Translations under genes and position numbers: made by a program
Part shown: positions 1 through 15,520 of the stretch, in pieces
How positions within the stretch are numbered: the first letter of the stretch is position 1
How the letters are laid out: every line of letters starts with the position of its first letter
Notes under the pieces: generated by a model
Told to the model about the DNA's origin: nothing
The model's input: the letters and a program-made list of their open reading frames with translations, nothing else
Databases searched by the model: none
NCBI GenBank assembly: GCA_014055495.1
Contig: WIAG01000032.1
Span: 1-40,326 of the forward strand
Direction: 5' to 3'
Source of the DNA: Nitrospira sp. CR1.2
Lineage (GTDB): Bacteria; Nitrospirota; Nitrospiria; Nitrospirales; Nitrospiraceae
Length of the DNA stretch: 40,326 bases

Positions 1-1336
1 GCTCCGCTTCGTTGACCCGCTCATCGGTGGTCGCAATCTGCACCATCGTGTGTGGAAGCACTCCCCAGTATAAAGCCATTTGCCGGCGAACCGGCGCGAA
101 GGGTGTAAAACTAATGATCGGAGCGGCTGGACGTTGCTTCGACACCAGCCGGGCCGTCATGCCACGTTCGCTGAACGCGACGATCGCGCTCGCACCGGTT
201 GCGGCCGCCGCCGATGACGCCGACAGACAGATGGCCTCCTCGAAGCTCAGCCGTCGATCCTCTTTCGCAGTTCTTCTGACAAATGCCGGTCCCGTTTCAA
301 CTTCCGCCGCCCGGACGATCCGGTCCATCACCTGCACCACCTCGACCGGATATTGTCCGACAGCCGTTTCCGCGGAAAGCATCACGGCATCAGTCCCGTC
401 GAACACGGCATTGGCGACGTCGGACGCCTCCGCCCTCGTCGGCCGCGTGTGTTGGGTCATCGATTCCAGCATTTGCGTCGCGGTGATGACCAGGCGCCGA
501 TGACGATTAGCGGTCGCGATGATACGCTTCTGCAAGACCGGCACCGCCTCAGGCCCTAGCTCAACGCCCAGATCGCCGCGGGCGACCATCACTCCGTCGG
601 CATGCGCGAGAATCGCCTCCAAATCCGCGACCGCTTCTTGCCGTTCGATTTTCGCGATGACCGGCACATCGCCGCCGCACTCGGCGATCAACCGCTTCGC
701 GGCAATGACATCCTCCGCCCCGCGCACGAACGACAGCGCGATATAGTCCACACCCTGTGCGACACCGAATCGCAAGTCCTCCCGGTCTTTGTCCGTCAAC
801 GTCGGAGCGCTGACCACGGTACCCGGTAGATTCATCCCCTTGTGGGACGTCACGCGGCCGCCCACCACCACCGTACATTCCACCGTGCCCTCGACGACGC
901 GGTCGGCCGTCAATTCCACAAGCCCGTCATCGATGAGTATTTTGGCCCCTGGCCTGATATCACGGGTCAGCGCCTGGTAGGTGACGGGGATTTCTTGCAT
1001 CGCGTCGGCAGGGCGCACCGTCCGGGCGCCGATCTGCCCGCCGGATCGCAAGGTCATCGTCCGCAACCGGACACGGCCACCGGCGACCAACCCCAACACC
1101 CCGTCGACCTCGCCGACCCGAATGCGCGGGCCCTGCAGATCTTGAATGATGGCGACGGCGACGCCCTGACGGTCGGCTGACTCGCGAATGACTTTGATCG
1201 CGTGCCCGTGGGAGTCATGAGTCCCGTGAGAAAAGTTCAATCGAGCCGCATTCATGCCGCTCTGGATCAGCTGATCCAGCACGCGCACGCCATCGCTCGC
1301 CGGACCGATGGTGCAAACGATTTTGGCTTTACGCAT
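1..1336 (-). CDS. pyk: Pyruvate kinase (3' part beyond window)
   Basis: Converts phosphoenolpyruvate and ADP to pyruvate and ATP, the last step of glycolysis, in the cytosol. The reverse complement from the ATG at 1336 opens with MRKAKIVCTIGPAS, the family's usual N-terminus, followed by the substrate-site segment AARLNFSHG. Further in are the lid (B) domain, ALSFVRGAEDV, VIAKIER, GVMVARGDLGVE and the signature TATQMLESMT. Next come TRPTRAEASDVANAV and DGTDAVMLSAETA, and the start of the C-terminal domain. About 445 codons are visible, so only the last part of a typical 470-480 residue enzyme is missing. It is transcribed divergently from the phosphofructokinase fusion, and the two start codons are about 200 bases apart. 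No clear promoter was found in that gap. The family assignment is secure. Confidence 0.96.
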   Translation of the reverse strand, partial: MRKAKIVCTIGPASDGVRVLDQLIQSGMNAARLNFSHGTHDSHGHAIKVIRESADRQGVAVAIIQDLQGPRIRVGEVDGVLGLVAGGRVRLRTMTLRSGGQIGARTVRPADAMQEIPVTYQALTRDIRPGAKILIDDGLVELTADRVVEGTVECTVVVGGRVTSHKGMNLPGTVVSAPTLTDKDREDLRFGVAQGVDYIALSFVRGAEDVIAAKRLIAECGGDVPVIAKIERQEAVADLEAILAHADGVMVARGDLGVELGPEAVPVLQKRIIATANRHRRLVITATQMLESMTQHTRPTRAEASDVANAVFDGTDAVMLSAETAVGQYPVEVVQVMDRIVRAAEVETGPAFVRRTAKEDRRLSFEEAICLSASSAAAATGASAIVAFSERGMTARLVSKQRPAAPIISFTPFAPVRRQMALYWGVLPHTMVQIATTDERVNEAE

Positions 1337-1542
1337 GGTGCGGTGCTTCTGCCTTGACAAGAGTGGCCCGACACACCATCTTGTACGTACACGGTGAGGC
1401 TCAATACGCGTGTGACTCCTCGGACGGGTCATTCTAACAAACCCGTCCCCGCGCCGCAAAAGAACTCTCCCTGATGCATGGAGACATCGCGGGCGGGAGA
1501 ACCTGGCGTGATCGTCCCAACTCGAACCCTACGAGGCCGAAG

Positions 1543-3882
1543 ATGAGCGGATCGGACAAGCAGGCCGGCGACCGGTTGGATTTCGTGACGCTGGACGGGT
1601 TATTGGCGTATGGTAACACCCTCGCTCAGCGCGTCTCGAGCGGGCGATATCTGCTGCCGCCTCCCCCTCTACCATCCACCGACAGACTGGAGCGCGCAGG
1701 GGCCGCAGTCGACCGCATCAAGGCCTTCATCCAGCGGGCACAAGCCGGCCTACCCAGCGCCGAGGCCTATCGCGCCGCGCGACAGGCCTTGCTGACAGAG
1801 GCCTGTGGCGGCGACCCGGTGGTGTACTTCGCCGCCTGGAACCTCTTGCTCGCGCGCGGTGACCTCGCGCCGCTGTATCGCGCTCCGATCGGCGCGACGC
1901 AAAAGCCCACCCATCGACGGCCGGTGGCGATCGTCCCGCGAGCCCAGCTGACCCCGCAACTTGCCGAAGGGCGTATCGTGCTCGACCTAGGTGACGACCG
2001 CTTCTGGCTGCTGCCCCGAGACCTCGGCGATCGCACGCTGTTTCTCACGATGCGACACGGGGTCTCGGAAGTGGAAAGCAAGACCCATCGTGTCGGTCGA
2101 CGACTGGCGAATGTGTTGGATGCCGAGCGCGGTGTGCCCAGGGCAGACGCGGTCGGGGCAGCCCTGGCCCGCATGGTGGGCGTCGTGGGCCAACAATTGG
2201 GGTACCTGCAGCTCCGCAACTATCTGGATCCTCGCACATTCCTCCACCTCATCAGCCACAGCCCGAATACCGAACAACTCTGCCGTCGCATCACCCACGC
2301 ACTCCTGCAGGACCGGGCAGATGCCGTGCATCCTCATATCGAGGCGACCTTGGAGTCACAGGATTTCGGTTGGGTCACGGGCATGGACAAACAAGCGGAG
2401 ATCGACGCAGCGGCACAAGCCTTTGGAGTAGACGCGAAAACCGCCAAGCGGCTGATCAAACACCCCTTGTACAGTTATCCCGGCGGGCACTCGTTTTTCG
2501 ATCTCTACGTCGATGTGATCGACGGGCTACACCGGCTGGGTCGTGCCCACCCAGGAGAAGTGCTCTGTCTGTATACGCATAGTTCGACCTTGCGCGCGCT
2601 GCGCATCTATCTGGATCCTCGCCCTTTCCGCGAAGCCTTTTCCGAGTTCGGCGAATATAAGGAAGGCCAGGACAACGTGGTGCTGCTCACCCTGGAGCAC
2701 GGCAAACTCTCCGGCTACTCCACCGCCGTGGGCTTGATCGAAAGCGACCGGGTGGCGCGGGAGGCCTGGGTAACCGTGGAACAGGAACGCAGCCAGCGCG
2801 TCACGCTCAAGCCGGGGCGGATCAAGCGCCTCCTGGCCCTGGTGTCCGGCGGAGATTTCGGCGGCGGCGGGGCGGCCCTGAAGGAATTGCGCGTCACCGG
2901 GAATCGCTTCGGGCTGGACGTGTTGTTCGTTCGGCACGGATTCCTGGGGTTGGCCAATAACTGGATCGATGCCGTCACCGAAGAAGATACCCGGGGCATG
3001 AGCAGCCACGCCAGCAGCCCCATCGGCAGCAGCCGCTTCGAGGATTTCAAAGACGAACAGGTGCAACGCGCGGCCATGCGCTCCCTCGCGCCCTATCTCG
3101 AGGACTCCGCACTGGTCGTCCTAGGAGGCGACGGAAGTTTGCGCGGCGCACGGGCCATCCATGAAACGTACGGCGTGCAGGTGGTGGGTATTCCCGGAAC
3201 CATCGACAACAATATCGCCGGTACGACCTCGCTCGGCTTCCACTCCGCGGTCGCGCTCGCCAATCAATCCATCGAATCGCTTAAGGCCACCAGCGCGGCG
3301 ATGGGCAGCATCTTTTTCGTCGAGGTCATGGGCGCCGGATCCGGCCACCTGGCGCTGGCCTGCGCCTACCAGGCCAGGGCGGAGGGCATCCTGGTCAACG
3401 AACATCCTGATCCCGACGCGTACATCGAGGAGGTGGTGCTGGGTACGCTGAAACGCACCTTGGGTGTCCCCAACAAGAGCCACATCTTTATCGTGGCGGA
3501 ACGGACACCCCACCGTCATCACAAGGAGGGCGGCGTCCACGGGCTGGTCGACTATGTGGCCCAGACCATTGCCACCTGGCCGCCGCGCAAAGAAACCTCC
3601 GGTCAGTATTCGCTGGCGTCGGCGACGAAGGCCACGATTCTCGGACACACCTTGCGAGGCGCTCCTCCGACGCCGGAAGACAAGATGATCGCGCAGCATT
3701 TGGCCTACGAAACGGTCCGCCGCCTCGTCGAGCAACCGGAGAGCATCGTCGGCTGCATGGTGGCGTATCACGATCCCCACCGGATGGAAACGATTCCGCT
3801 CCATGCGTTGTCACCCAAACCATTCGATTGGGAGTTATTCACACGCATGCATGGAACGGAGTTGCCGAACGACACGGTGTAA
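1543..3882 (+). CDS. Histidine phosphatase / 6-phosphofructokinase fusion
   Basis: Two enzyme domains in one chain of 779 residues. Residues about 160-400 resemble a phosphoglycerate-mutase-type histidine phosphatase: MRHG with nucleophile H172, HSPNTEQLCRR, an acidic ESQDFGWVTG stretch, GGHSFFD and a late YTHSSTLR with H346. Residues about 427-779 are a phosphofructokinase: LVSGGD near 434, LGGDGS (528-532), GIPGTIDNN (550-557) and FVEVMG (592-597). Gly in GGDGS and in PGTID is the pattern of ATP-using rather than pyrophosphate-using enzymes. The final N in TIDNN replaces the common Asp. An upstream in-frame ATG at 1474 would add 23 residues. The ATG at 1543 has GAGG six bases upstream and was preferred. 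The first 150 residues match nothing I recognise. PFK identity is firm; the phosphatase's substrate is unknown. Confidence 0.88.
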   Translation: MSGSDKQAGDRLDFVTLDGLLAYGNTLAQRVSSGRYLLPPPPLPSTDRLERAGAAVDRIKAFIQRAQAGLPSAEAYRAARQALLTEACGGDPVVYFAAWNLLLARGDLAPLYRAPIGATQKPTHRRPVAIVPRAQLTPQLAEGRIVLDLGDDRFWLLPRDLGDRTLFLTMRHGVSEVESKTHRVGRRLANVLDAERGVPRADAVGAALARMVGVVGQQLGYLQLRNYLDPRTFLHLISHSPNTEQLCRRITHALLQDRADAVHPHIEATLESQDFGWVTGMDKQAEIDAAAQAFGVDAKTAKRLIKHPLYSYPGGHSFFDLYVDVIDGLHRLGRAHPGEVLCLYTHSSTLRALRIYLDPRPFREAFSEFGEYKEGQDNVVLLTLEHGKLSGYSTAVGLIESDRVAREAWVTVEQERSQRVTLKPGRIKRLLALVSGGDFGGGGAALKELRVTGNRFGLDVLFVRHGFLGLANNWIDAVTEEDTRGMSSHASSPIGSSRFEDFKDEQVQRAAMRSLAPYLEDSALVVLGGDGSLRGARAIHETYGVQVVGIPGTIDNNIAGTTSLGFHSAVALANQSIESLKATSAAMGSIFFVEVMGAGSGHLALACAYQARAEGILVNEHPDPDAYIEEVVLGTLKRTLGVPNKSHIFIVAERTPHRHHKEGGVHGLVDYVAQTIATWPPRKETSGQYSLASATKATILGHTLRGAPPTPEDKMIAQHLAYETVRRLVEQPESIVGCMVAYHDPHRMETIPLHALSPKPFDWELFTRMHGTELPNDTV

Positions 3883-3976: not shown

Positions 3977-4444
3977 ATGACGATGTCTAGTCGACGCCTC
4001 ACAGCTCTTCTCCTTTGGTTCTGCGCGACTCTCCTGTTGCAGCTGGGATTCTCCGTCGCCGGCGAACCACCCAGCACCCTGCAGGAGGCGCCGGTCTCCA
4101 CCCGCGCTTCCGTGTCCGACCAGGCCCCAGCCGCCCAAGATGGATCCGTTCGCGCCGGGCCCCAGGCCACCCAGCGGGATGTTCGTGACGCCGTCCCTGC
4201 AGCCGCCCGGGAGACCCTCAAGGCCATTGAGGAACGACACGGGGAACCCCTACCTGGGTATGTCGGAGGAAGGACGTTCCAGAATCGCGAGCGTGTACTG
4301 CCGCGCGGTCGGTATCGTGAATACGATGTGCAGCCGAAAGTGGCGGGGAGAAATCGTGGAGCCGAACGGATCGTCATCGACCAACGCAGCGGCAAGGCCT
4401 ATTACACGGCCGATCACTATCGCTCTTTTATTCCGATGAATTGA
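3977..4444 (+). CDS. Exported barnase-like guanyl-specific ribonuclease
   Basis: A 155-residue protein whose last 60 residues follow barnase and RNase Sa closely. FQNRERVLP is followed by YREYDV with the general base E115, AERI with R131, and TADHYRSF with the catalytic H147; these match barnase E73, R87 and H102. The enzyme family cleaves single-stranded RNA after guanosine. Residues 1-29 have basic MTMSSRR, a hydrophobic stretch and a possible cleavage after SVAG, so export is expected. Residues 30-70 look like a flexible linker rich in Ala, Pro and Gln. The next gene, 6 bases after the stop, encodes a barstar-family protein, the known inhibitor of this fold. All catalytic residues are present, so it should be active. 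A second ATG lies two codons downstream. Confidence 0.9.
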   Translation: MTMSSRRLTALLLWFCATLLLQLGFSVAGEPPSTLQEAPVSTRASVSDQAPAAQDGSVRAGPQATQRDVRDAVPAAARETLKAIEERHGEPLPGYVGGRTFQNRERVLPRGRYREYDVQPKVAGRNRGAERIVIDQRSGKAYYTADHYRSFIPMN

Positions 4445-4450
4445 GGAGAC

Positions 4451-4987
4451 ATGTCGATTACCGCACTCCAATCGATCAAGAAACCCTGGGCGCATCTCCT
4501 GGTGCATGCCGAGGGAGAAGCGCTCGATAAACTACTCTCCGTCCCCTCTCATTTTGTTACCAAGACCGTCTCCGGCAAGAAATGCAAAACCAAGGCTGGG
4601 TTGCTGGATGAGTTCAGCCGGGTCTTCTCGTTCCCGGATTATTTCGGCCACAACTGGGATGCCCTCGAAGAATGTTTGGCGGACCTCGACTGGTTGCCGG
4701 CGAAGGGCTACCTCGTCGTAGTCACGGACGCCGACCAGGTGCTGACAAAGCCCGACGAGGAGGACGATTTCGAAACCTTCGTCGAAATTTTGAGCGAGGC
4801 CGGCGAGGCCTGGAGCCTGAAGGAATCCGACGATGCCACGGGCAACGGCCTCCCGTTTCACGCAGTCTTGGCCGTATCCGAGCGGCACAAACGCAGTCGT
4901 CACAATTGGTTCGCTCCACCCTTGGCCATGGAACGAAAGACGGCCAAATCCACCGGGGCGAAGGGATCTAAACCAAGCGGTCGCTAG
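4451..4987 (+). CDS. Barstar-family RNase inhibitor
   Basis: A 178-residue soluble protein with the barstar core at residues 50-90: LLDEFSRVFSFPDYFG, then HNWDALEECLADL. D70 aligns with barstar Asp35 and E74 with Asp39, the residues that plug the barnase active site, so the acidic character is kept with Glu in place of Asp39. There is no signal peptide, so it should stay in the cytosol and protect the cell from RNase that has not been exported. It is longer than classical barstar (about 90 residues). The extra part includes an acidic KPDEEDDFE segment and a basic Lys/Ser/Gly-rich tail. A GGAG ribosome site precedes the ATG, and the RNase stop is 6 bases upstream, so the pair is co-transcribed. 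Confidence 0.9.
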   Translation: MSITALQSIKKPWAHLLVHAEGEALDKLLSVPSHFVTKTVSGKKCKTKAGLLDEFSRVFSFPDYFGHNWDALEECLADLDWLPAKGYLVVVTDADQVLTKPDEEDDFETFVEILSEAGEAWSLKESDDATGNGLPFHAVLAVSERHKRSRHNWFAPPLAMERKTAKSTGAKGSKPSGR

Positions 4988-8309: not shown

Positions 8310-8939
8310 ATGCTGCACAGAAACGAACGTGTGTCCCGCCTGCTCAGCCGACTCACGCTGCTGCTCCTCGTCGCTTCACCCACCCCGCCGGCCCTCAGCG
8401 TCATGGAGGAGACTCGGTCCACCCTGCACACCTACACCCCGGCAGCCACGAACAATCCCGGGCCGTTTCACTGCCAGAATTGCTGGGGGTTGACACCGGA
8501 AGAGCGTCAACCGCTCCCCCAGCATCAGGCGCCACGGTATCGACCAGGGCATCATGAGCGAGGCCTTCGCCCGCACAAAAACCCGTTTGCGAAAAAATCC
8601 CATTCGTTCAGCCGAGGGCTGAGATCCCTTCCGCGTCACGCCTTATCCATGGGCGGATTCGAGCGGACCGTGGAAGGCTGGCAAGTACGTACGGTCGACG
8701 GCGATACGATTCGCTACGGCACGGATCGCATCCGCATTCGCGGCTACCACGCGCCGGAATTGTCGGAACCTGGCGGCCGGGAAGCGGCCATGCGGCTGGA
8801 GCAACTGATGCAGGACGGCACGATCAAGATTATTCCCCACGGCCGCGATGTCTACGGCCGCACGCTCGCCGATGTGTTCGTGAACGGCCAGAACGTGGCG
8901 GACGTCATGACGAGGGCAGGGTTTGGAAGAAGAGGCTAA
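8310..8939 (+). CDS. Thermonuclease (SNase-like) family protein
   Basis: A 209-residue protein with an N-terminal hydrophobic stretch (about residues 11-30, a likely signal peptide). A low-complexity region rich in His, Pro and Arg follows up to about 112, then a compact SNase domain at 120-206. Visible motifs are VRTVDGDTIRYG with D130 and D132, RIRIRGYHAPE with E150, and RDVYGRTLADVFVNG with R184. Known family members are calcium-dependent nucleases that cleave DNA and RNA. In the usual V-D-x-P-E stretch the Asp that helps bind calcium appears as His147 here, so activity or metal use could differ. The C-terminal part is shorter than in staphylococcal nuclease. Likely exported; the biological role is unknown. 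Confidence 0.82.
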   Translation: MLHRNERVSRLLSRLTLLLLVASPTPPALSVMEETRSTLHTYTPAATNNPGPFHCQNCWGLTPEERQPLPQHQAPRYRPGHHERGLRPHKNPFAKKSHSFSRGLRSLPRHALSMGGFERTVEGWQVRTVDGDTIRYGTDRIRIRGYHAPELSEPGGREAAMRLEQLMQDGTIKIIPHGRDVYGRTLADVFVNGQNVADVMTRAGFGRRG

Positions 8940-11794: not shown

Positions 11795-14700
11795 TCAGTT
11801 CGCGCAAAGCCCCGCCACGAGGTGGGAGAGCTCCACGAGGTCGAAAGGCTTCTTCACGAATCCGCACAGTCCCTGCTCCAATAGTTCTTGATCGACCTGC
11901 CCGAACGCGTGCCCGGAGAGGAGAAGCACCCGCGCTCTCGGATCGATCTCGCGCAGTACGTGAAACACATCCACTCCGTTCATACCTGGCATGGTTACAT
12001 CCAACAGCACGACATCGAACCGCTCCTGATGCTGGTAGGCCGCAATGGCGCGCGGACCGCTGTCGGCCGTTGTGATCGTATATCCGAGACCGCCGAGAAA
12101 CTCCCCGACCATGTCGCGAATGGCCACCTCATCGTCCACCAGCAACACTCGTCCGCTCCCGCGCTTCGCGGCCTCCCGATGAGGAGGCCGCGTCGTCACC
12201 TCCAAGCCCGCGGCCGACAGCGGCAAGTGAATACGAAACGCGGTGCCCTGTTCCCCGGTCACCAGTTGTATGCCGCCGCCGTGCTCGCTCACCGTTCCGT
12301 AGACGGCGGCCAGTCCGAGCCCATTTCCCGCCTCACCCTTCGTCGTATAAAACGGTTCAAACAAATGCTCGAGGTATTCACTCGCGATGCCGCTACCTTG
12401 ATCGGCGATGTTCATCACCAAATACCGACCGGGCTCGACGGGAGGCCGCAGCTCCGCCGCCTTGACCTGATCCACCTCGTGCTCGTAGGTCGAGATGGTG
12501 ATGGCGCCGCCGCGTGGCATGGCATCTTTAGCATTGATCAGCAAATTCAGGACCATCGCCTGCAACTGCGCGGAATCCCCGACCACGATCGCATACGGCG
12601 CCTCCAACGCCATTCTCATGCGAATCGAGTCGTGCCAATTGGTATTGGCCAGTTCCAATGTCGTGCGGATGAGCTGATGAAAATCCAACGGCTTCGACTC
12701 CAGCTTCGCTTTCCGACCGAACGCCAGCAGATTCGCCGTCAACGTCGCTGCGCGAGCCGTCGCCTCCTGAATCGCACGCAATGGCTTCAACTGTTCCTCA
12801 TCCTGGGTGCGCTGCTCCATCAATTGCGCATACCCTTGAATTCCGCAGAGCAGGTTGTTGAAATCATGTGCGATGCCGCCGGCCAATCGTCCGATGGCTT
12901 CCAAGCGTTGCCCGTGACGCAAGCGATTCTCGAGTTGATGCCGACGCGTCATATCCGTAATCGTGACCAGCGCACCCTCGACCGTGCGGTCTTCCGTGCG
13001 GTAGGGAGCGAGACGTAATAAGTAACAGCGCCCGCTGGACAGCTCAATGCTTTGCTCGTGCTGCATGCCTTCATCGATCACTTGACGAACGAAGCGGTGC
13101 ACCCCGATTTCGTCGGGCACATCCGAGGTAATGTCGCTGAGCTCGCGCCCCACATCCCGCGGGATGAGGCGAAACAGAACGGTGGCAGCCGTATTGAACC
13201 GTCGAATCCGGCAATGGCGATCGACGAAAATGATGCCCACGTCCGTGTTGTTGAGCAAGTTGTCGTGATCGCGGTTCAGATCAATCAAGATTCGGTTCTT
13301 CTGGTCGTATTCAGAATTCACGGTGTGCAGCTCTTCGTTGACCGATTGCAGCTCTTCGTTGGCCGATTGCAGTTCTTCGTTCGCGGACTGCAGTTCCTCA
13401 TTGCTCGATTGCAATTCTTCGTTCGTCGTCTGCAGCTCTTCAATCGTCGTTTGCAGGTTTTCCCGGGTCACTGACACTTCCCGCTCCAGATCCATGAGAC
13501 GCTGGCGATACGAATCCTCCAACTCGGAAGGCAGGGTCACCCCCTCCGCGGCAAGCGCAACGTCCTGCGAGGCGTGGAGCACAGGTTGAGCGGACAAGAG
13601 GACCGACGTATTGCCATGGCGGTCGCTGAACGGCGTCGCCGTCAAGATCAGGGTCGTGGGCTTGTCCTCCAGCGTGAGGTGGATCGGTTCAGAACGGCAC
13701 ACCTGCTTCGCCATGGTGGCGCGGTGGATCAAGCCGGTCGCGGACGATTCAAGCGCGTCTGGGAACAATTTGACGGCTCGGTCGGTCTGCCGGCCTTCTC
13801 GAATGCACAGGAGACGCGAGCCGTCGCCGAACACATGGGCCAAACGTCCGTGATCGTCGAGCAGCAGCCCCGCCACGTGGCATTGCGTCAAAATGCTGTC
13901 GTAGACGGAGAGGAGACGACTCTCGCCGATTTCTACTGCCTCAGCACGGAGGCGCGGCTGTCTCACCGTCGTGTGAATGAGAGAGGATTTCCGCACCATC
14001 GGTGAATAGGAGGCCGCTGCTCCCCGCAGTTTGCGAAATACACGGAGCCGGGGATCCACGACGGTGAAGTCCTCGTGTAGCGATCCGATCCCCTCACTCA
14101 CACCGAGGAGCAAGATCCCCTCCGGATTCAAGCAAAAGCGAAACGTGCGCAGCGCCAACTCCTGCGCCGGAGTATCGAAGTAGATCAGCAGATTGCGACA
14201 GCTGATCAAATCGAGCCTGGTAAACGCCGGGTCCACCAGCACATTGTGCGGCGCAAAGACCACCATCTTCCGTAGGAGTGGCGCCACACGGCCGCTCTTA
14301 CTCGTCAGCCGCACCACATAACGCTCGAACAATTCCGGAGGGATTGCCGCAAGTTCCTCTTCGGGATAGGTTCCAATGCCTGCGGTTTCAAGCGCCGAGC
14401 GATGGACATCGGTGGCGAACACCCGCAACTGCCCCTGATAGTTTTGCGCAGCGGCAGCCTCGTGCAGCAACATCGCCAGCCCATACGCTTCTTGACCGGT
14501 GGCGCAACCGGGCACCCAACATCGTATCTCCTTCTGCTCCAGCCGGGTCCGCACCAGTTCGGGAATGACTTCGGCGCGGAGGTGTTCAAACACACGTGTA
14601 TCGCGGAAGAACGACGTCACGCCGATGAGCAAATCATCGAGCAAGGCCTTCGATTCCTCCTGATCCTCCGATAACAGTTTCAAATACAATTCCAGGTCGC

Positions 14701-15520
14701 TCACGGCGCACATCCCCATTCGACGTTCCAACCGTCGTAGAATGGTTCCCTGCTTGTACAGCTCAAACTCAATCCCGAATAGATTCTTCAGATGTGCGAG
14801 AATCCGCTGATACGTCGTGATCCGACCGCCTCGACCGGACACGTCGAACGTCTCCGGATTTCTGAGCCACCAATAGACCCCTAATGCGAGCGCACTCGGA
14901 TCTCCCACGAGGTGCGGCCGCACAGCGTCCAGGGCACTGCTGGGCATGCCCTGAAACTCGGCCTTGTCGGGATCCTGGACAAACACCACACCCCCGGACT
15001 CTGCCAAGGTCTGTAGACCACGACTGCCGTCTGAGCCCGTCCCGGTCAGCACCACTGCGGCCGCGCGCGCCCCGTACGAGGCGAGACTGCGGAAGAAATG
15101 ATCGATCGGTTGATGCAGCGGAAGATCGCCGCGCGCCTCCAGCACCAACCGGCCGTCCTGCTGCGTGAGCAGCTTGCCCGGTGGGATCAAATAACAATGG
15201 TCGTGCAGCAACGTTTCATTATGTTGTGCTTGGCGCACCGGCATGTCGGTGTGCCGGGCCAGTAGCTCTTGCATATGGCTGGGGTAGTCGGGACTGAGAT
15301 GTTGGATGACGACAAATGCGGCACCGGGATTCGAGGGTAGCGTACTGAAGAAGCGCTCCAGGGCTGCCAGCCCTCCTGCCGAGGCGCCGATCGCTACCAC
15401 ACGCAGCGTGTCCAGCGAGGCCGGACCTTCGCCGCCTGAGGAGCTGTCTACTTCCCTTTGAACGGCGCTCTGACCGGCCGAGGGCGAAACGTCTGTGTCA
15501 GGAGGATCCGACGAAGACAT
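11795..15520 (-). CDS. CheB-CheR-PAS hybrid histidine kinase with receiver
   Basis: A 1241-residue signalling protein. Residues 40-215 are a CheB-type methylesterase with the triad S47 (GASAGG), H74 (IQHLSP) and D164 (GTGSDG). About 235-500 are a CheR-type methyltransferase ([41 protein letters not shown]-like [10 protein letters not shown]). A coiled coil of seven-residue units (NEELQS) spans roughly 690-735, followed by a PAS domain (about 750-860). Then come a histidine-kinase domain ([11 protein letters not shown]) and an ATPase domain ([20 protein letters not shown]). The C-terminal receiver starts near 1121, with phosphate-accepting D1174 in [18 protein letters not shown] lies seven bases before the ATG, and a promoter is predicted at 15648-15676. 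No chemotaxis receptor or CheA is nearby, so it probably serves regulation other than motility. Confidence 0.95.
13328..13453 (-). repeat. Six 21-bp units coding a coiled coil
   Basis: Six consecutive 21-base units inside the CheB-CheR kinase gene. Each encodes a seven-residue unit on the minus strand: [28 protein letters not shown] (twice) and QSVNEEL. The period fits one coiled-coil heptad per unit. The DNA is similar enough between units that copy number could change by slippage. Confidence 0.85.

Follow-up and report, generated by a model that had tools for sequence, protein, structure and literature searches.

A class-wide histidine phosphatase-phosphofructokinase fusion in the Nitrospira lineage with changes in both active sites

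One gene in the window analysed here, the whole stretch of 40,326 nucleotides on contig C123 of a Nitrospira genome of 4.06 Mb in 167 contigs, encodes a histidine-phosphatase (HP) fold and a PfkA-type phosphofructokinase (PFK) domain in a single chain, and this is confirmed as a genuine fusion. Both active sites are altered alike in every member examined (110/110). The reading we favour, at a rough probability of 0.45 and drawn from sequence comparison, is that an old PfkA paralogue has become a sugar-phosphate kinase with different regulation and possibly different specificity, its HP domain serving as a controller that senses or hydrolyses a phosphorylated ligand.

The open reading frame spans positions 1474-3882 of the forward strand (802 codons), and a start at 1543 yields 779 residues (Table 1). 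The latter start agrees with the N-termini of the homologues and has GAGG directly 5' of it; the in-frame ATG upstream, at 1474, is the less likely start. An earlier reading made from the sequence only had proposed an HP domain fused ahead of a PFK, with a kinase architecture unlike that of mammalian PFKFB, and it was right on both points: the C-terminal half matches PF00365, the N-terminal half takes the HP fold in an AlphaFold2 model, and the kinase domain is of the PfkA type and lies C-terminal to the HP domain.

Table 1. Coordinates of the fusion gene, its domains and active-site segments, and the adjoining gene in the window
Feature	Position	Strand	Remark
HP-PFK fusion gene	1543..3882	+	779 aa + stop
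Helical N-terminal extension, residues 1-145	1543..1977	+	conserved KPxxRRPVAIVPR at 121-133
HP fold, residues 146-398 (about)	1978..2736	+	dN/dS 0.02-0.04
RHG motif, R171 H172 (nucleophile His) G173	2053..2061	+	invariant 110/110
SPNTEQL (240-246), where the second phosphate-binding Arg normally lies	2260..2280	+	Glu at residue 244
LESQDFGW (270-277), with Ser272 at the site of the proton-donor Glu	2350..2373	+	Ser272 110/110
Late His346	2578..2580	+	invariant 110/110
PfkA-type PFK domain, residues 424-779	2812..3879	+	dN/dS 0.02-0.05
GGDGS (528-532), Gly531 (E. coli G104) and Asp530 (D103)	3124..3138	+	ATP-type
PGTIDNN (551-557), Gly552 (G124) and Asp555 (D127) kept, Asn557 for Asp129	3193..3213	+	
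Gly588-Ser589 for Gln161-Arg162 (F6P-phosphate ligand, E. coli PFK)	3304..3309	+	
Met596-Gly597-Ala598, Ala for Arg171	3328..3336	+	
KATILGHTLR, Lys696 for Arg243; His702 (H249) and Arg705 (R252) kept	3628..3657	+	
Divergent pyruvate kinase gene	2..1459	-	runs off window

The sequence match of the N-terminal half to the HP superfamily is weak. Its first 386 aa matched PF00300 (His_Phos_1) just over the cut-off (22.7 against 21.7 bits), the whole 802-aa ORF scored 20.1 bits and so fell below it, and in the N-terminal alignment 27 of the 28 members matched this profile at E<=1 (best 4e-6). An NCBIfam scan of the N-terminal 386 aa returned no family, and a profile of the N half searched against PDB sequences returned nothing at E<0.3 (best E 0.35), PFKFB2 being one of three weak matches (E about 0.4). 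Three other HP-family matches occur in the window's genome, one of them a GpmA-like phosphoglycerate mutase; aligning the N half with GpmA and two of the genome's own HPs in hhalign gave a probability of 27 and E 7e-4, the middle of the alignment being unreliable. A plasmid search with the N half gave no match. Where sequence is this weak, the predicted structure settles the matter in favour of an HP fold. In the AlphaFold2 model of residues 1-412 (70 sequences; mean pLDDT 85, pTM 0.87), the part from about residues 146-164 to 397-403 was matched to phosphoglycerate mutases and related phosphatases in 50 of the 50 rows listed, with Z 15.3-16.6 over about 200 residues. The best match was 9o8j (Z 16.6, 2.9 A, 206 aligned), and 1ebb (Z 16.4, 2.7 A, 198 aligned) and 1e59 (Z 16.0, 2.9 A, 206 aligned) scored similarly.

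Active-site residues were compared in an alignment of 110 distinct near-full-length sequences from 131 loci, identical rows having been dropped; the first number is the smaller because some genomes had entered twice by different routes. A chance or assembly fusion is ruled out, near-full-length frames being found at 131 of 131 loci in many genomes. The RHG at 171-173 and the late His346 noted in the sequence-only reading were both found throughout, and their placement is backed by the profile alignment to GpmA and the two HPs of the same genome. Its "central acidic segment" stands in part: the segment, LESQDFGW, is acidic at Glu271 and Asp274, but the proton-donor place itself is a serine. The acidic proton donor of HP branch 1, E89 of GpmA (Met=1) and E102 of TIGAR in the available portion of PMC6131595, falls in a column that is Ser in 110/110, flanked by Glu or Asp at 271 in 109 and by Asp274 in all 110. 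For the second phosphate-binding Arg (R62 of GpmA as reference position; R152 of PGAM5 in the part of PMC5501728 available to us), the candidates are residue 244 or the invariant Asn242, in a segment where the hhalign alignment is unreliable. Residue 244 is Arg in 62 homologues, Glu in 24, Thr in 10, Lys in 7 and another residue in 7, the Glu carriers being the clade of the window's genus plus one relative from within its family. Further along this helix, R249 is Arg in 104/110 but sits over one turn beyond the usual place. In sum, the domain shares with HP branch 1 (phosphoglycerate mutase, PhoE and the Hydrogenobacter phosphoserine phosphatase) the fold, RHG and late His, and departs from it in the Ser at the proton-donor place, a second Arg that is not conserved where it normally lies, a THSS late-His motif instead of the usual (A/S)HG, and a long helical extension.

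The C-terminal half is readily recognised as a PFK (PF00365, E=4e-57), although it reaches only 174 bits against the NCBIfam ATP-PFK equivalog TIGR02482, far under the cut-off of 371. In a full-length model of pLDDT 71, it was superposed on E. coli PfkA (1pfk) with Z 27.5 and 2.6 A over 216 residues, the subdomain 576-705, which bears several of the residues discussed here, having pLDDT under 50. Within PfkA we take D127 to be the catalytic base, D129 and R171 to be active-site positions and R21, R25 and R154 to be effector-site positions. The ATP-type GGDGS/PGTID pattern described previously holds, with Gly531 and Gly552 in 110/110 and D and K in their places in the PPi-PFK of the same genome. 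A PPi-type identity for the fusion was rejected, since the equivalents of Gly104 and Gly124 are ATP-type and the genome's PPi-PFK is a separate gene. Beyond the fold and these glycines, the likeness to E. coli PfkA extends to the equivalents of D103, D127, R72, M169, E222, H249 and R252, which like those of G104 and G124 are invariant in 110/110.

The departures from E. coli PfkA, apart from the attached HP domain, are concentrated in the sugar-phosphate and effector sites. The Asn in TIDNN to which the sequence-only reading drew attention is a true one: N557 takes the place of Asp129 in 110/110 fused homologues, against Asp in 11/11 non-fused PFKs. Arg162 is replaced by Ser (103) or Thr (7), and Arg171 by Ala in 110/110. 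The non-fused set, which comprised E. coli PfkA, the PPi-PFK of the window's genome and nine stand-alone PFKs from elsewhere in the phylum's genomes and was compared with 19 fused domains, kept R162 as well as D129 in 11/11 cases, PPi-types included, and R171 in 9/11. In E. coli PFK, R162 and H249 coordinate the F6P phosphate and R243 is named a fructose-binding residue, according to the accessible text of PMC12889660. R243 is Lys and Q251 is Leu in the fused halves, both changes being shared with the genome's PPi-PFK, and Q161 is Gly. The effector arginines are also lost, with R21 changed to K, R25 to V, A or S and R154 to K, and R54 replaced too.

From its distribution and phylogeny, the fusion appears to be an ancient, class-wide orthologue group in the Nitrospira lineage. 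It is present in 27 of the 28 other same-genus genomes examined, and the N-half profile detected it in 101 of 395 genomes from the phylum, with all matches inside the class; G004, a complete genome of the same genus, is without it. Nearly all frames matched by this profile exceed 600 aa, the exceptions being broken or contig-end pieces (G091 and G097), and no stand-alone N half was found with it in the 395 genomes. The C-half profile matched 208 of the 395, and the matches listed beyond the class are shorter, non-fused frames. Among named relatives, the N. defluvii orthologue is 90% identical and that of N. moscoviensis 75%. A contig scan with two N-half motifs gave 149 stretches and 113 relatives; the best 80 of the 113, which were used, are Nitrospira/Nitrospirota-type or Manganitrophaceae, with NOB2 titled Nitrosospira and one relative titled Nitrospinota. 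The fusion's absence from several small genomes fits the available part of PMC9239080, in which streamlined Great Lakes Nitrospira are without PFK.

In the PFK tree, which covered 19 fused domains, nine stand-alone PFKs, E. coli PfkA and the PPi-PFK of the window's genome, the fused domains formed one clade with support 100/100 on a branch of 6.81. The forks that would place this clade have supports of 31/4 and 87/66, and the very long branch leaves its sister group without placement; a single fused clade on such a branch would fit one ancient origin, no later than the base of the class. Six dN/dS comparisons by the Nei-Gojobori method, rough values because dS exceeded 1 in many pairs, gave 0.019-0.037 (HP domain), 0.023-0.047 (PFK domain) and, for the extension, which evolves fastest, 0.077-0.187 (0.08-0.19). 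These figures indicate strong purifying selection on both halves, the HP domain seemingly constrained as much as the kinase, and an HP domain with such ratios is not decaying. This bears on the simplest account, in which the protein would be a normal ATP-PFK specific for F6P, its HP-derived part being an inert appendage for oligomerisation or stability. HP domains are easily recruited, and the Pfam and NCBIfam matches are to PFKs; still, with HP constraint equal to that of the kinase, invariant HP active-site residues, a score of less than half the equivalog cut-off, and changed F6P ligands and effector site, we consider this account very improbable.

Several loci depart from the common arrangement. 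The ends of contigs C51, C37, C26 and C6 of G097 carry two N-terminal and two C-terminal fragments of the fusion, a pattern that could come from a repeat splitting the gene or containing it. In G091, a genome of the same order (C1:133633-135924), the N half contains stops and frame changes and the frame of the PFK half is open, which reflects either true decay or sequencing error. In G096, a short stretch (C44:4128-4373) some 5 kb away from the complete gene encodes the final ~78 residues of the PFK half a second time.

Of the 80 loci from the best 80 of 113 relatives, 50 have a pyruvate kinase gene no more than 700 bp from the fusion. Among the 55 loci flanked on each side by 2 kb or more of sequence, this holds for 40, and in 14 pyruvate kinase is absent nearby. 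Two types of pyruvate kinase adjoin the same fusion gene, since some members of the order have another type there, 37-40% identical to the window's. Elsewhere in the window's genome there are a PPi-PFK of the NF041103 type (658 bits, cut-off 550) and a class I FBPase; a glpX-type FBPase was looked for in this genome and is absent. The proposal that the HP half supplies a missing FBPase was rejected, as the class I enzyme is already in the genome. The PPi-PFK gene (G000, C12:106935-107564, locus L002) adjoins an ORF that by eye is aldose-epimerase-like.

A second PFK-profile match accompanies the fusion in 10 of 11 more distant genomes of the class. Within the family, the fusion is the sole PF00365 match in at least 20 of the 127 genomes having any such match, a lower bound taken by eye from the match tables; 16 of these 20 fusion-only genomes reach 90% completeness or more, with contamination of no more than 5%. 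Class I FBPase was found in 9/9 genomes checked (eight fusion-only genomes and the fusion-less G004), or 10/10 with the window's genome, and a phosphorylase-family match in the same 10/10. With FBPase and phosphorylase in fusion-only genomes, both directions of upper glycolysis look to be needed there.

This inventory also weighs on the possibility that both halves are non-catalytic and that the chain is a metabolite sensor or scaffold, regulating, for example, the pyruvate kinase neighbour or the PPi-PFK. The C-terminal halves of eukaryotic PFK, which turned into effector sites, offer a parallel; Asp129, Arg162 and Arg171 and the HP acid are lost class-wide in a fixed manner, and another PFK is encoded in the same genome (the PPi-type here, the second match in 10 of 11 distant class genomes). 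Against this, Asp127 and every ATP-type and Mg-site residue examined are invariant, and the fusion-only genomes of the family have no other PF00365 protein, and we find a double pseudo-enzyme rather doubtful.

The sequence-only reading had gone further in the other direction, suggesting that one chain carries opposing kinase and phosphatase activities. In such a PFKFB-like switch, PFK would form a sugar bisphosphate, be it fructose 1,6-bisphosphate or some other, and HP would strip the same phosphate, setting glycolytic against gluconeogenic flux. R171, the nucleophile H172 and the late H346, kept in 110/110, the near-invariant E/D271 as a possible substitute acid, the strong constraint on the HP domain and the pyruvate kinase neighbour are what one would expect of it. 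It would require an unusual acid in the HP site, however, the usual donor being Ser272 throughout; some members of the HP superfamily do work without the usual acid. The place of the second Arg is variable and is Glu in the window's protein, the kinase has lost its F6P-phosphate ligands (with Asp129, Arg162 and Arg171 all replaced), and a separate class I FBPase is present in 10/10 genomes checked, besides the separate PPi-PFK here. The claim of opposing activities thus exceeds the evidence, and we regard the switch as rather unlikely.

We return to the favoured reading, a PfkA paralogue under the control of its HP domain. The fusion-only genomes, together with the intact ATP-site and catalytic-base residues, favour a kinase that is probably active and would still move phosphate from ATP onto a sugar phosphate. 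The changed F6P ligands point to a changed substrate or binding mode, or to no activity; the substrate may be F6P, bound in an altered way, or a different sugar phosphate. That the effector site was lost and a constrained HP domain gained suggests a shift of control to the HP domain: the former ADP/PEP control of the PFK half would be gone, and the HP domain would have taken over by binding a phosphorylated metabolite or the kinase product at the R171/H172/H346 pocket, perhaps with slow hydrolysis in which Glu271 or Asp274 replaces the usual acid. The position beside pyruvate kinase might reflect a role in forward glycolytic flux, for instance flux that consumes storage glucan, set apart from the reversible PPi-PFK and class I FBPase. 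Several points count against this reading: the fixed loss of Asp129 and Arg162 could mean zero F6P kinase activity; an HP pocket without the usual Glu and a conserved second Arg may bind nothing phosphorylated; and G004 does without the fusion, as 14 of 55 well-flanked loci do without a nearby pyruvate kinase.

Besides PfkA and HP branch 1, the closest known systems are PFKFB and PPIP5K/VIH. PFKFB likewise unites a sugar-phosphate kinase and an HP domain in one chain; its kinase is of an unrelated P-loop type and N-terminal to the phosphatase, whereas that of the fusion is PfkA-type and C-terminal. The eukaryotic PPIP5K/VIH inositol pyrophosphate kinases also join a kinase and an HP-like domain in one chain, with an ATP-grasp-type kinase, inositol phosphates as substrates and the domain order reversed relative to the fusion. 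Since kinase-joined HP domains are known from PFKFB and PPIP5K, the idea is not categorically new. PFKFB is 6-phosphofructo-2-kinase/fructose-2,6-bisphosphatase, with the role given in the accessible portions of PMC12965863 and PMC6131595. A bolder proposal, which we judge distinctly unlikely, is that the fusion is a third, bacterial kinase-HP metabolic switch beside PFKFB and PPIP5K: a PfkA paralogue whose sugar-phosphate site changed at the base of Nitrospiria would have given up its ADP/PEP effector site, and an HP domain with a rewired proton donor would sense or remove its product or a signalling sugar bisphosphate new to bacteria.

It had been asked at the outset whether this exact fusion is widespread with a published role. 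Within one class it is widespread; a search of openly licensed papers, a set that lacks most subscription articles, gave no published role for it and no description of an HP-PFK fusion, also when a role of PFK in Nitrospira was looked for, and the part of PMC2964296 available to us does not mention a PFK fusion. The domain pairing, its order and the two altered active sites are apparently undescribed in the openly licensed literature searched, where we could not find them. Nitrospira are major nitrite oxidisers and comammox bacteria in which the on/off control of storage-carbon breakdown is poorly known. The annotation "phosphofructokinase" for the fusion gene may be wrong or incomplete, and pathway reconstructions that count it as an ordinary PFK may therefore mislead, chiefly in fusion-only lineages. 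Should the HP domain regulate the kinase or act as an enzyme against it, the protein would be a compact switch that arose independently of PFKFB, and the invariant substitutions offer direct point-mutation tests.

The window holds other genes of note. At 3977-4987 (+), a Barnase-like ribonuclease (PF00545, E 2e-16) is followed by a barstar (PF01337, E 1e-27), a pair kept beside the fusion in 31 of 100 loci. Further along, 11795-15520 (-) encodes a 1241-aa CheB-CheR-PAS-histidine kinase-response regulator chain, and 8310-8939 (+) a 209-aa ORF whose C-terminal half we take, from a motif seen by eye, to resemble a thermonuclease (SNase) domain.
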